From Treponema sp. (GTDB taxonomy: Bacteria; Spirochaetota; Spirochaetia; Treponematales; Breznakiellaceae), in the NCBI GenBank assembly GCA_031275535.1, contig JAISOR010000286.1, positions 1 to 10,874 on the forward strand: a stretch of 10,874 bases of DNA. The letters are read 5' to 3'. Shown piece after piece: positions 539 through 7,271 of this stretch. Within the stretch, counting starts at the first letter, position 1. Each line of letters begins with the position of its first letter. The translations under genes were made by a program, and so were the position numbers. Under the pieces are notes generated by a model that saw nothing but the letters and a program-made list of their open reading frames with translations, made no database searches and had not been told where the DNA came from.

Positions 539-647
539 CAGACCGAAGTCTGATGCCACGGCGCAACGAACAACCGCTTACCGTTGCTTCCTTCCGAACC
601 TGGCGGGGTTAGGCGGCGTCCGTTCGCATGGTTCCTGGCTACAGGGT
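516..647 (-). ncRNA. ffs: 4.5S signal recognition particle RNA (small bacterial form)
   Basis: The RNA of the signal recognition particle; with Ffh it targets nascent membrane and secreted proteins to FtsY. The minus strand carries the family's hallmark apical domain: CAGGTTCGGAAGGAAGCA (583-602), with the GGAA tetraloop and the symmetric and asymmetric internal loops that bind the Ffh M domain. The flanking arms pair, GCCGCC with AAGCGG-type partners and then GCGAACGGAC with GTTGTTCGTTGC. The closing helix AGCCAGGA (633-640) with TCCTGGCT (531-538) is perfect. The ends are estimated from the promoter (start near 647) and the run of seven U (516-522), giving about 130 nt, typical for the Alu-less form. 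There is no sign of an Alu domain. It lies just downstream of pyrD but has its own promoter. Confidence 0.95.
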
Positions 648-3422: not shown

Positions 3423-3451
3423 AGTATACTACCTGGGGCTGATGTCCACAA
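3423..3451 (-). promoter_or_regulatory. Likely promoter of pyrF-pyrK-pyrD
   Basis: On the minus strand TATACT (3423-3428, 5 of 6 consensus) lies 17 bases after TTGTGG (3446-3451, half matching). The nonamer GTAGTATAC overlapping the -10 also occurs at the SRP RNA promoter. The start is predicted near 3416. No attenuator-type terminator is seen between it and pyrF. Confidence 0.5.
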
Positions 3452-3463
3452 GGGACGGAGAGT

Positions 3464-3498
3464 GTGAAGAGGAGTGGAGAGTGAAGTGGGGAAAGGGT
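3464..3498 (+). repeat. Purine-rich dispersed repeat, copy B
   Basis: It begins GTGAAGAGGAGTG, continues AGTGAAGTG and ends GAAAGGGT. It matches copy A (479-515, minus strand) word by word with a few substitutions and a short length change. It lies in the 281-base divergent region between pyrF and the nuclease gene. Confidence 0.55.
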
Positions 3499-3514
3499 AG
3501 AGAGGTAAGAAAGT

Positions 3515-3572
3515 GTGAAAAATTTTCACGGCAATTAAAGCAAAACGCCGCTTTAATCCCATTATATTGGGA
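3515..3572. repeat. Two short dyads in the pyrF/nuclease divergent region
   Basis: GTGAAAA-A-TTTTCAC (3515-3529) is a perfect 7-bp dyad. TCCCA-TTATAT-TGGGA (3557-3572) is a 5-bp dyad around a TTATAT core. A third, CCGCC-GCTCAA-GGCGG, follows at 3577-3592. They could be operators for either divergent gene or the border of the purine repeat. No regulator is recognisable from the sequence. Confidence 0.35.
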
Positions 3573-3602
3573 AAGGCCGCCGCTCAAGGCGGGTCTTCTC
3601 TC

Positions 3603-3631
3603 TTGTCCGGTATTCCGGCATAGGATATATT
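3603..3631 (+). promoter_or_regulatory. Possible promoter of the nuclease gene
   Basis: TTGTCC (3603-3608) and TATATT (3626-3631) are 17 bases apart. The predicted start near 3638 falls within the AAGGAG ribosome site (3637-3642), giving an unusually short leader, so the assignment is tentative. Confidence 0.4.
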
Positions 3632-3648
3632 TTTACAAGGAGCCAGAT

Positions 3649-4287
3649 ATGGGAAACGAAACACGGATACGGGAGCCGCAGCGGGGCCTAACCTTCGAGG
3701 ATGTCTGGGCCGCGATCCAGGAAACCGACCGAATGCTCAAAGAAATGAGCGTGGAAGCCGACCGGCGCATAAAAGAGACCGATCGACAGATGAAAGAGAC
3801 CGACCGGAAAATGAAGGAAACAGACCGGAAGATGAAAGAAACGGACCGGAAGATGGGCGAATTGGGAAACCGGTTTGGGGAACTGGCCGAACATCTGGTG
3901 GCGCCGAGTATCCACGAAAAGTTCAACGCCCTGGGCTACCACTTCGACGCCGTTAGTCCCGGCGGAACCGAGATCAAAGATCCCGACAGCGAAACCTACG
4001 CGGAAATAGACATTCTGCTCCAGAATACCGAATACCTTGTGGCGGTGGAGATAAAATCGAAGCTCCGGGAAAAGGACGTGGACGCCCATATCAGGCGGCT
4101 GGAGATCTTTCGGCGCTGGTCGGACAAGCACGGGGACAAGCGGAAGATCCTCGGGGCGGTGGCGGGGGCCATCGTAAGCCGCGAGGTACGGCACTATGCC
4201 CTGCAAGCGGGTTTCTATGTGATTGTCCAAACCGGGGACACGGTCAAGATAGATATCCCCAAGGGCTTTGTCCCCGGAGAATGGTGA
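3649..4287 (+). CDS. Predicted PD-(D/E)XK nuclease with N-terminal heptad coiled coil (DUF3782-like)
   Basis: A 212-residue protein, the only confident plus-strand gene. The start ATG (3649-3651) follows AAGGAG with six bases spacing; a longer open frame from 3442 lacks such a site. Residues 16-75 are highly charged helix, including four near-identical heptads KETDR(K/Q)M at 42-69 with Met and Thr at 3/4 spacing, expected to form a coiled coil. The C-terminal part (76-212) has the restriction-endonuclease-like core: an acidic helix around E90, then AEIDIL with D121, a strand and VAVEIKSK with E134 and K136, i.e. the D-x(n)-E-x-K pattern. From recall this matches the DUF3782 or related uncharacterised nuclease families that occur in many copies in Treponema, cyanobacteria and thermophiles. 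Substrate and role are unknown. It sits antiparallel between pyrC and pyrF, which would otherwise be adjacent, so it looks like an insertion. Confidence 0.85.
   Translation: MGNETRIREPQRGLTFEDVWAAIQETDRMLKEMSVEADRRIKETDRQMKETDRKMKETDRKMKETDRKMGELGNRFGELAEHLVAPSIHEKFNALGYHFDAVSPGGTEIKDPDSETYAEIDILLQNTEYLVAVEIKSKLREKDVDAHIRRLEIFRRWSDKHGDKRKILGAVAGAIVSREVRHYALQAGFYVIVQTGDTVKIDIPKGFVPGEW
3772..3855 (+). repeat. Four tandem 21-bp repeats coding for KETDRKM heptads
   Basis: Four consecutive 21-base units each encode KETDR(K/Q)M. The units differ mostly at synonymous sites, so the peptide is more conserved than the DNA. The unit length of exactly three heptad turns' codons allows copy-number change without frameshift and changes only coiled-coil length. 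Confidence 0.85.
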
Positions 4288-4304
4288 AGGGTAGGTTTAC
4301 CCTT
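4287..4304. terminator. Dyad between the convergent nuclease and pyrC 3' ends
   Basis: AAGGGTA-GGTT-TACCCTT is a 7-bp stem with a 4-base loop. It spans both stop codons (TGA 4285-4287, plus; TAA 4297-4299, minus). No T-run follows on either strand, so it may be a weak or processed 3' end rather than a classical terminator. Confidence 0.35.
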
Positions 4305-5706
4305 CAAAAACAATCCGGCCCTGGTGAATGGTCAGGAGTATCTTGCCGGATAGGTCCCGGCCTATAAAGGGTGAATTCTTTCCCCGGGATCTAAAGGATT
4401 CCGGCCCGGGCTTCCAGGAGGCGCCGGGATCGGTAAGGATGAGATCGGCCCGGAGGCCCGGCGTGATCCGGCCCCGGTCGGTAAGTCCCAGGAGCCGGGC
4501 GGGCTTGGCGCTCATCAGGGAAGAAAGCCGGGACAGCGTAAGGCCGCCCTCCCGGACCAATTCGGTCCGGCAAACCGCAAAGCTCGTCTCAAGCCCCGTA
4601 AAGCCCGGCATACCCCCGGCCTTATCCGCCCCGGTGTGGGGGGCATGATCGGTGGCCAGGGCATCTACGGTTCCGTCCAGGACCCCGGCGACAATCGCCC
4701 GCCGGTCCTCCGCGGTCCGCAGGGGCGGATTGACCCGGCCCAGGGATTCGGCCCCCAGGGACCGGGCGTCCGCTTCGGTCAGGGCTATATGGTGGGGGGC
4801 GGCCTCGCAGGTAAGGCGGAACCCGGCGGAAAGATCCGCGCCGGGGGAAGGCTGAGGGGAGGGCTCCTGCGGCCCGGAAACCGCCCCCTCCCCCTTAGCC
4901 CGGCGGATCATGTCCAGGGCTTCCCTGGTGGACACATGGGCAATGTGGACATGGCAGCCCTCTTTTTGCCCCAGTTTGATGGCCCGCCGGGTGGCCGTGT
5001 TTTCTTCAATCCGGCTCCAAACCTCCCGGGGTTTGCCGGCCTTCCTGGCCGCTTCCGCCTCCGCCCCACCGGCGTCGCAGTGGCAGGAAACGGGGATGCC
5101 CAAACGGCGGGCCTCGGCAAAGGCCGCCCGGAAGAGGGTGTCGTCGGCCAGGTCTTTGCCGTCCTCGGAAAGCATCCGGGGGATATAGGGGGAAGCGGCG
5201 GAAGGGGCGCCCCGCCGCAGGGTGGTGATAGCGGAGAGTTCCCGGCCTTCCATGTTCCGGGTCAGGGCCAGCACGGGGTATAGGTCAATAAGCCCCAAAG
5301 AGCGGGCCCGGTCCCGCAGGAGCGCGGCGGCTTCGGGGGTGTCGATCACCGGCCTGGTATTGGCCATGCAGACCACCGTGCCGTAACCCCCGGCAACCGC
5401 GGCCAGGGATGCGGACTCCAGGGTTTCCTTTTCGGGAAAACCGGGGTCCCTGAAATGGGCATGGAGATCAACCAGGGCGGGCATAAGCACCGGGAGCCTT
5501 CCCCCCGGCAGCGCGTAGTGGCGGCCGTCTATGATGCGGGCCGCGCCGTGGGCCGCGTCTGCGGCGGCGCCACAGGCGAGAGCATCCAGCCGGGCGGTCC
5601 CGTCCTGGGGGATAAGCCCGGTAATCAGGCCATCCTCTATGATCACCGCCCCGGGCATATCCGCCTCTTCATCCACGACGCGGACATTGAGGACTATGGT
5701 TTTCAC
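4297..5706 (-). CDS. pyrC: Dihydroorotase, class I
   Basis: Cyclises carbamoyl-aspartate to dihydroorotate. 469 residues, longer than the roughly 430 usual for this amidohydrolase class. Metal ligands are visible: [10 protein letters not shown] (H82, H84), LSEDG (D182), CHCD (H209), HIAHVST (H257) and LATDHAPH (D353). Substrate residues are in the HFRDPG arginine, MANTRPVID (114-122) and RVNPPLR (324-330). The extra length comes from an Ala-rich bulge near 45-57 and an inserted EPSPQPSPG segment (about 271-294) in the loop before the CEAAPHH motif. The start is a GTG (5704-5706) inside the pyrI stop (GTGA, 4-base overlap), so translation is coupled. It ends facing the nuclease gene with only 9 bases between stops. 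Confidence 0.95.
4850..4900 (-). repeat. Palindromic REP-like insertion inside pyrC
   Basis: GGCTGAGGGGAGGG (4850-4863) is complementary, with a one-base bulge, to CCCTCCCCCTTAGCC-type sequence (4886-4900). The element is in frame and encodes the low-complexity peptide with PSPQPSP that interrupts the dihydroorotase between RRA and [12 protein letters not shown]. Its GC-rich imperfect palindrome is typical of REP or MITE-like repeats that enter coding genes without breaking them. Confidence 0.5.
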
Positions 5707-6161
5707 CGGAAATCCCCGGCGCCGTTTCCGGCGTAGCTCCCCGCGGAACGGATCTCATCACAATACTCACAACGGTAGGTTCCCAGCTCCGGGTCTTCCA
5801 AATGAAAGATATGGGGGACATACTTTTCGGTAGAGGTTATGCACCGGGGATTCTTACAGATAAGAATATCCTCCACCCGCCGGGGCAATACGAGTTTTAT
5901 CTTTTCGGTAATCTGCTCATTTTCAATAATGTTCACCGTAATATGGGGATCAATAAGGCCAAGGATATCAAAATTAATAGTGATGGTATTATCAATCTTG
6001 ATGATATCCTTCCTGCCCATCTCATCGGAACTGGCGTTTACCACAAAGGCCACCGTATAGGGCGCCTTGTCGAGGCCCAGCCAGTTAAAAATATGGATCC
6101 CCTGGCCGGCTTTAATATGATCGATGACGATCCCGTTTTTTATTTTCGCGATATTTAACAT
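5703..6161 (-). CDS. pyrI: Aspartate carbamoyltransferase regulatory chain
   Basis: The non-catalytic chain of the class B ATCase holoenzyme; it binds nucleotide effectors (CTP and UTP inhibit, ATP activates in E. coli) and links catalytic trimers through a zinc domain. 152 residues, the family length. The N-terminal allosteric domain has IVIDHI (11-16) with the conserved Asp-His pair and the [11 protein letters not shown] block (48-58). The C-terminal zinc site is complete: C102 and C107 in CKNPRC, and C131 and C134 in CEYC. A short Gly/Ala-rich tail (about 140-152) follows. The start ATG overlaps the end of pyrB by 7 bases and the stop overlaps the pyrC GTG, so the three are one translationally coupled unit and feedback control of ATCase by pyrimidine nucleotides is to be expected. 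Confidence 0.97.
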
Positions 6162-7102
6162 AGGGCCCCTCCCTGCTCCCGGACCACTCCCAGGATCGAC
6201 GCCAGTAAAGCCATTCGGACATACATGCCATACTTGGCCTGTTTAAAATACGCGGCCCGGGGATCGGCGTCCACCTCTACCGCAATCTCGTTTACCCGGG
6301 GAAGGGGATGGAGGATGATCATGTTTTCCCGGGCCAATTCCATCTTTTCCGTGGTAAGGATGTAGCTGTCCTTGAGGCGTATGTAATCCTCCTCATTGAA
6401 AAACCGCTCCCGCTGTACCCTGGTCATGTAGAGGACATCCAGGCCGGCTATGACCTTTTCGAGCTGGCCGGTTTCCGTATAGGAGACCCCCTCCTTTTCA
6501 AGAACCCCCCGGGTAATGTATTCGGGGACCCTGAGTTCCGGCGGGGAGATGAAGATCAGCCTGACCCCGGAATAACGGGCCAGGGCCTTTGCCAGGGAGT
6601 GAACGGTCCGGCCAAACTTGAGGTCCCCGCAGAAACCCACCGTAAGGCCGCTAAAGCTCCCCCGGAGCCGCCGGATGGTAAGCAGGTCCGTCAGTGTCTG
6701 GGTGGGATGATGATGGCCGCCGTCCCCGGCGTTAATCACCGGCACGGAGGAATAGCGGGAGGCCAGCAGCGCGGCCCCCTCCTTGGGATTCCGCATAACC
6801 ACGGCATCGGCGTAACAGGCGGCCATCCGTATCGTGTCCGCCAGGCTTTCCCCCTTGGCCGCGGAACTGGAACCGGGCTCCGCAAAACCCAGGCAGCTTC
6901 CCCCCAGCCGCAGCATGGCCGCCTCAAAACTGAGCCGGGTCCGGGTGCTGGGCTCAAAGAAAAGGGTGGCCAGCACCCTTCCCCGGCAGCTTTCCCGCAG
7001 GTACGGGGCATCCTCCTCGATCCGTTCCGCCAAACGAAAAAGCCAGTCCATCTCTTCAATACTAAAGTTTCCCGGTTCTACGAGATGCCGTCCGGCAAGC
7101 AT
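6155..7102 (-). CDS. pyrB: Aspartate carbamoyltransferase catalytic chain
   Basis: Joins carbamoyl phosphate and aspartate, the committed step of pyrimidine synthesis. 315 residues, normal length. The carbamoyl-phosphate site [12 protein letters not shown] (48-59), the mobile loop lysine in AAKGESL (K83), the HPTQTLTDL block (132-140), and the aspartate-site [10 protein letters not shown] (264-273) are all present. The HPLPR motif and the company of pyrI identify ATCase rather than ornithine carbamoyltransferase. The ATG (7100-7102) has a strong GAGGAGG ribosome site (7107-7113) at tight spacing. An intrinsic terminator lies only about 20 bases upstream of the ATG, between the predicted promoter and the gene, so expression is probably controlled by transcription attenuation. 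Overlaps pyrI by 7 bases. Confidence 0.98.
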
Positions 7103-7235
7103 AGGCCCTCCTCAAAAAACAGCAAAAAAAAGGCCGCCCTAAGGCGGCTTTTATAAAACAGAAAAAATACCCCGTCCTGCCGAAAACACGAAACCCATCT
7201 GTCCAAGGCCTACCGGAGCGTCCTTTTAATACCAT
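7062..7235 (-). CDS. Candidate pyrB leader peptide frame (long, 57 codons)
   Basis: ATG at 7233-7235 opens a 57-codon frame through the U-rich tract (reading GYFFCFIK), through the terminator hairpin and the following T-run ([10 protein letters not shown]), ending out of frame 41 bases inside pyrB. The layout and the Phe-rich character recall the E. coli pyrL leader peptide. There is no Shine-Dalgarno, but the predicted transcription start is one base before the ATG. A competing 15-codon frame exists at 7151-7198. Translation is unproven. Confidence 0.35.
7124..7152 (-). terminator. Intrinsic terminator in the pyrB leader (attenuator)
   Basis: Minus strand: GCCGCC (7143-7148), a four-base loop, GGCGGC (7133-7138), then C and eight T (7124-7131). 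A U-rich tract (minus strand of 7154-7170, with a run of six T) lies immediately upstream. The plus strand also has TTTT after the stem, so it may work both ways. It lies between the predicted promoter at 7243-7271 and pyrB. Alternatively it simply ends the bacteriohemerythrin transcript. Confidence 0.85.
7151..7198 (-). CDS. Candidate pyrB leader peptide frame (short, 15 codons)
   Basis: The frame ATG (7196-7198) to TAA (7151-7153) encodes [15 protein letters not shown]. Its stop lies two bases before the terminator stem, so a ribosome terminating there would cover the 5' arm and prevent the hairpin. This position suits a ribosome-coupled attenuator, but the ribosome site ahead of it is weak. 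Confidence 0.35.
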   Translation of the reverse strand: MGFVFSAGRGIFSVL

Positions 7236-7242
7236 GATCTGT

Positions 7243-7271
7243 ATCTTATCAGGCTTTTCTTAAAAGGGCAA
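7243..7271 (-). promoter_or_regulatory. Predicted pyrB-pyrI-pyrC promoter
   Basis: On the minus strand TTGCCC (7266-7271) and TAAGAT (7243-7248) are 17 bases apart; each matches consensus at 4 of 6. The start is predicted near 7236, giving a leader of about 134 bases before pyrB. Confidence 0.45.

Follow-up and report, generated by a model that had tools for sequence, protein, structure and literature searches.

Gene order and leader elements at the pyrB locus

The window, the whole 10,874-nucleotide stretch of Treponema DNA analyzed here, carries on its minus strand a bacteriohemerythrin gene followed by a leader region, pyrB, pyrI, and a gene for a pyrC-type amidohydrolase. pyrB encodes the aspartate carbamoyltransferase catalytic chain (6155..7102, with its ATG at 7102) and pyrI the regulatory chain (5703..6161), and the amidohydrolase (4297..5706) is a dihydroorotase judging by its family and position. 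Within the pyr cluster, an open reading frame (ORF) lies on the opposite strand (3442-4287, plus strand); it contains a 21-nt tandem repeat of 4.7 copies (3758-3855) and gave weak matches, under the curated cut-offs, to the DUF3782 and PD-(D/E)XK nuclease models. Elsewhere, the window matched the Bacterial small signal recognition particle RNA (544-640, minus strand; 54.2 bits).

All elements of the leader region lie on the minus strand. Its promoter consists of a -35 box (TTGCCC, 7266..7271) and a -10 box (TAAGAT, 7243..7248) separated by a 17-nt spacer, and it was the best in its stretch when promoters were chosen blind. A 57-codon leader ORF (7062..7235), predicted to be leaderless, begins with an ATG at 7235-7233, 7 nt after the -10 box, crosses the terminator hairpin, and enters pyrB in another frame. 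A second frame of 15 codons starts with an ATG at 7198 and stops at 7153-7151. The U-rich tract at 7153..7169, presumably a UTP-sensitive pause region, lies just before a sequence with the make-up of an intrinsic terminator (7124..7148), the putative attenuator: arms of GCCGCC and GGCGGC (7148-7143 and 7138-7133) enclose a TTAG loop and are followed by one C and eight U (T at 7131-7124). The pyrB ribosome binding site, GAGGAGGG, occupies 7106..7113. An earlier note on this DNA had placed the promoter and both leader frames at these positions and had also listed the U-rich tract, the stem, the eight U, and the ribosome site; its coordinates were exact to the base. It was equally right that the short frame stops two bases before the stem and that the long frame passes through it, like E. 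coli pyrL.

The hairpin ranked first among the 24 sites that a terminator scan found in the window, compared with 16.2 ± 4.0 sites expected in shuffles, which means that chance accounts for most such sites. The promoter has 8 out of 12 consensus bases and scored 10.3 bits on a sigma70 matrix; it was absent from the list of a strict scan because it falls one consensus base under the limit. When the 205 bases preceding the stem were dinucleotide-shuffled 1,000 times, 45 shuffles had a promoter of this quality, 16 had a blind-best promoter together with a nearby start whose frame stayed open to the stem, and 3 had both. Searching plasmids with the leader by blastn produced no match.

Leader layout in related genomes

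We collected relatives of the locus by searching with PyrB. Among species genomes, this search yielded at least 80 loci, with a best identity of 85% among the matches listed; of the 80 matches listed, 70 had titles of spirochaetes, mostly Treponema MAGs, and 10 of Clostridia-type bacteria. Judging by their names, many of the relatives' bins presumably come from termite guts. A search across the whole family of one relative produced a match in 189 out of 195 genomes, some only weak, as would be expected from other carbamoyltransferases. The upstream regions gathered numbered 209, of which 182 were distinct and 138 were of the family type, a set that contains L032, placed outside the clade by the PyrB tree. 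From the second search, 100 further stretches were taken and about 14 near-full-length rows were left out; L089 was dropped, as was L077 (without upstream DNA). Promoters were picked blind, with score as the sole criterion, from the 170 nt preceding each hairpin. Because single-linkage clustering at 65% identity chained the leaders too extensively to count independent cases, 40-base de-duplication was used instead. The automatic calls for L120, L126, and L206 were judged wrong and relabeled before forms were counted on the tree and in the family set.

Inspection of the first 39 regions by eye revealed a promoter, an ATG, a short frame, and a hairpin in about 20. When 63 distinct pyrB terminators were assessed blind, 32 were preceded by a frame that starts 5-11 nt past the -10 box and stays open as far as the hairpin, a count that includes three implausible calls (15, 19, and 163 nt from the stem) retained because the test was blind; in the remainder, 2 frames ended early, 13 lacked a start, and 16 lacked a promoter. 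A control drawn from 792 kb of relative G142 (both strands, about a fifth of the genome) comprised 66 terminators. Only 4 of these had an open leader frame: the genome's own pyrB leader, two frames running 162 and 1,672 nt past the hairpin, and one 18-nt leader; the full layout occurred three times, at the first three of these sites. The difference (32/63 versus 4/66) corresponds to a Fisher value of 9e-9 that ignores kinship among leaders; since the leaders are related, this and the other tests overstate independence, and their significance values are inflated.

Among the 34 leaders with a start, 32 were open to the stem in frame 0, compared with 5 in frame +1, 16 in frame +2, and 12.8 ± 2.5 (maximum 21) in 2,000 shuffles. 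A stop codon fell within -9 to +3 of the stem in 15 out of 34 leaders, and in 14 relatives it ended 0-4 nt before the stem; the other two frames had 0 and 5 stops within -9 to +3, and shuffles 3.4 ± 1.7 (maximum 10). By eye, the leader peptides had no obvious common sequence across the clade. A recurring layout, an open frame, and an enrichment in U are what this comparison of sequences reveals.

As the earlier note had cautioned, the hairpin might be a mere terminator of the upstream bacteriohemerythrin gene, with pyrB transcribed from another promoter. It does share its strand with the hemerythrin gene and lies about 135 nt past the stop codon of that gene, and in L007, L141, L160, and L179 the terminators follow the end of a co-directional gene, by eye. 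Yet the upstream ORFs of 44 loci formed 33 clusters, with 26 out of 44 on the opposite strand, and the promoter, leader frame, and hairpin persisted despite these changes in the comparison of relatives that the note had proposed. (We took the longest ORF of at least 80 aa, not always a gene; this covered 44 out of 51 attenuator loci, the other 7 having no sequence or ORF.) The leader frame is open far beyond chance, and the strict scan, which also missed the leader promoter, listed none for the 30 nt that separate the U run from pyrB. Because the layout ahead of pyrB is retained across differing upstream ORFs, we consider it quite improbable that the hairpin only ends the bacteriohemerythrin transcript.

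Predicted transcript start

Promoters scored 7.5 bits or more in 49 leaders; in these, an ATG occurred 34 times at 5-11 nt past the -10 box, most often at 6-7 nt (19 cases). From promoter spacing only, we infer that transcripts start at the leader ATG: with this ATG mostly 6-9 nt past the -10 box, the first base of the RNA is predicted to be its A or to lie one or a few bases upstream. The leader ATGs generally lack a preceding Shine-Dalgarno site (the window reads GATACAGATC); in L003, L102, L011, L143, and L167, a few G upstream of the ATG would make weak pairing possible. A sub-group (L017, L119, L128, and L159) has a 5' stretch of about 10-20 nt, and L028, L197, L199, and L208 have, by eye, a longer 5' stretch with G-rich parts before the leader ATG.

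These offsets bear on the two leader frames, which the earlier note had offered as equals. The 57-codon frame follows the start-offset rule of the relatives and is favored because its start coincides with the predicted transcript start; the 15-codon frame does not begin at the position used in relatives and is probably a chance or secondary frame.

Leaderless mRNAs look common in the spirochaete G142 (stretches L306-L345). In a set of 937 ORFs, each at least 150 aa long and taken from the first ATG, a good promoter stood 5-9 nt before the ATG 58 times, with a peak at 6 nt (26), and an SD-like site was present in none of the 58. Separately, in 8 out of 63 terminator-free family-type regions (L018, L033, L156, L174, L175, L184, L213, and L214), a promoter-like site lies 5-11 nt before the start of pyrB, as if pyrB itself were leaderless.

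Length classes, U tract, and candidate signal

With duplicates removed (L177 = L021 and L212 = L034), the 33 leaderless leaders that we compared comprised 17 long ones (66-126 nt) and 16 short ones (36-43 nt). In the long class, to which the window belongs, the frame crosses the stem in 12 leaders and the stop abuts the stem in 5; in the short class, 12 leaders have a stop abutting the stem and 4 a frame crossing it. In the long class, U made up 61% of the bases between -20 and -10 relative to the stem, and a run of four T was present in 13 out of 17 long versus 5 out of 16 short leaders, the U tract being mostly absent from the short class. At -30 to -10, U amounted to 45% versus 31% ± 1.7% in within-leader shuffles. 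A further composition count, on 31 leaders, omits rows with a doubtful promoter or start (L005, L120, L028, L208, L012, L126, L091, and L152), and the count of TTT additionally omits L212. In the resulting 30 leaders, TTT occurred 52, 48, and 43 times in the three frames; such neutrality would be expected if selection acted on bases and not on Phe codons, as at a polymerase pause site.

Such neutrality is hard to reconcile with classic amino-acid attenuation, in which stalling at Phe or other codons would shift hairpins, even though the leader peptides contain more Phe than any other residue (10.3% of 677 residues in 31 leaders). Phe has no known link to pyrB, and inspection of 26 leader folds, none of the short class, revealed no competing antiterminator: the terminator hairpin was kept in the minimum-energy fold, and no other hairpin competed with it. 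Codon sensing is therefore very improbable in our estimation.

The pyr operons of Bacillus use PyrR-type attenuation, and an RNA-binding protein of this type or a riboswitch might be envisaged here as well. Weak matches to the PyrR model occurred in 43 out of 78 relatives, probably representing other phosphoribosyltransferases; none of the 78 family relatives (the window's own genome is not among them) exceeded the cut-off, compared with 6 out of 14 control genomes. The leader had no Rfam match at gathering scores, only sub-threshold ones, and the 26 folded leaders had no shared fold. Three of these 26 (L155, L017, and L094) folded more stably than shuffles, with z below -2. We regard control by PyrR or a riboswitch as extremely improbable. 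After testing against relatives, folds, and models, the upstream-gene terminator, PyrR, codon sensing, and a riboswitch were all set aside.

UTP is our best guess for the signal in the window because the U enrichment is positional and frame-blind and neither a PyrR in relatives nor a shared fold was found that could serve as sensor. On these sequences, UTP is the likely signal for the long class, including the window, and is weakly supported for the short class, leaving room for another signal. A leaderless attenuator that depends on coupling might, for instance, report translation capacity or the balance of polymerase and ribosome instead of UTP. The short class would suit such a device, as 12 of its 16 stops abut the stem and only 5 leaders have a run of four T. 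By contrast, the long class, including the window, has a sharp U peak (61%) at the position where pausing would give the ribosome time to catch up, and the layout turned up at pyrB but at none of the other genes scanned. That scan of the oriented strand, which covered about 1.5 kb upstream of each match and would miss a more distant operon head, found no such layout at 91 carA, pyrE, and Xan_ur_permease loci (31, 30, and 30, respectively), bar one hit that is coding sequence by eye. The pyrE match was over the cut-off in 1 out of 29 genomes, the others having weaker phosphoribosyltransferase matches. With no such leader found at the carA, pyrE-like, and permease genes scanned, no second pyrimidine operon backs the signal. 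Altogether, a device that senses coupling and not UTP appears rather unlikely to us.

Distribution and phylogeny

Among the 138 family-type regions, 63 had no terminator, 4 were too short, and 20 had a terminator with no recognized leader; within this last group, L007, L141, and L160 are, by eye, ends of upstream genes. A further 16 regions were labeled 'utr', with L012, L120, L126, and L206 doubtful among them, and 35 were leaderless, a tally that still counts both copies of the duplicate pairs. Roughly half of the related regions, then, have lost the device or lack it.

In the PyrB tree, built from 61 rows, a clade of 55 family members was supported at 98/93. Its early branches include L110 and L028 (attenuator with a 5' stretch) and L003 (leaderless), and the layout occurs on late branches too. 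The window grouped with L002, L106, and L109, all leaderless, with modest support (86/62). The leaderless label needed 11 changes on the tree, versus a shuffled mean of 15.9 (2 out of 500 shuffles were as low), which implies loss or regain in several branches; the tree is rooted at its midpoint, many of its inner branches are open, and the direction of change is inferred.

Two kinds of repeated sequence were also seen in these regions. Short AACTTCAGTT-like sequences, often palindromic, lie upstream of pyrB in 11 out of 138 family-type regions by a loose pattern (L040, L124, L135, L140, L148, L152, L153, L156, L194, L197, and L113), and perhaps form a dispersed repeat family. In L091, tandem TTGAGCCATTGCCAAGTGGCA-like units extend to just before the hairpin, where relatives carry the leader.

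A candidate leaderless attenuator of pyrB-pyrI-pyrC

We consider it probable, on the evidence of these sequences, that a coupling-dependent, leaderless, pyrBI-type transcription attenuator controls pyrB-pyrI-pyrC. RNA polymerase would begin at, or a few bases from, the leader ATG, and a ribosome would load on the bare 5' AUG once it is clear of polymerase, without a Shine-Dalgarno site. With ample UTP, polymerase would pass the U-rich tract quickly and stay ahead of the ribosome, so that the hairpin would fold and transcription would stop. With scarce UTP, polymerase would linger in the U tract, and the ribosome would close up and cover the 5' arm of the hairpin. Covering this arm, by a frame that crosses the hairpin in the window or by a stop 0-4 nt before it in 14 relatives, would lead to readthrough into pyrB. 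The earlier note had proposed this pyrBI logic, with a frame abutting or crossing the hairpin and a U tract just before it; it fits the window and the long class of 17 leaders to which the window belongs.

E. coli pyrL is described as following this pausing and coupling logic (PMC10135430; PMC5021804), with a pause that is sequence dependent and does not act via a NusA-sensitive hairpin (PMC9291695). The window has in common with E. coli pyrBI/PyrL a promoter, a frame crossing a GC hairpin, a U-rich tract, a U run, pyrB with pyrI, and a hairpin-to-pyrB distance of 30 nt. In E. coli, an untranslated 5' stretch with a Shine-Dalgarno site (GGGAGGATGTATG) precedes the leader frame, whereas the ATG of the window follows the -10 box by 7 nt; leader translation led by a Shine-Dalgarno site, a feature of the E. 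coli case and not of the principle, is absent from the window. Also unlike E. coli pyrBI, relatives have 36-43 nt leaders whose stop mostly abuts the hairpin, and pyrC follows pyrI. A second E. coli control, outside the attenuator, acts by reiterative initiation at a U run at the transcript start (PMC6245113); the window has no such run, as its predicted start reads CATGG.

In E. coli reporters described in PMC4824070, a ribosome at a stop codon a few bases before a hairpin blocks termination: with the stop codon 5 bp before the terminator, termination fell from about 90% to under 10% in a translation-dependent manner. These are reporter constructs, not a natural pyrimidine switch. Transcripts of Sinorhizobium meliloti trpL and Streptomyces leuL, trpL, and ilvL start at the leader ATG, according to PMC7298713 and PMC8079986, as is predicted for the window. 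Those attenuators are described as sensing amino acids by codons and hairpins, whereas here we found no frame codon bias and no competing hairpin. What would be new at the present loci is a leader that starts at the predicted transcript start, together with the long U-tract class and the 36-43 nt class. Neither such a leader in Treponema nor a leaderless pyrB leader was found in the open-licence literature searched.

We tentatively put forward a wider possibility, which we hold as conceivable and by no means probable: that leaderless attenuators are family-wide and that the smallest, in which 36-43 nt separate the AUG from the hairpin (roughly the footprint of one ribosome, and 10-13 codons if the stop abuts the hairpin), have lost the U-tract sensor and may read the race between 5'-AUG loading and polymerase directly. 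The long U-rich forms and the 5'-stretch forms of other branches would then be older.

pyrBI-type control is known from enterobacteria, and the attenuator proposed here would bring it into spirochaetes, coupled to leaderless mRNA. Natural attenuators of graded length would provide a test of how fast a ribosome loads on a bare 5' AUG and catches polymerase. If the smallest leaders do read this race directly, leaderless translation itself would set the pyrimidine genes.
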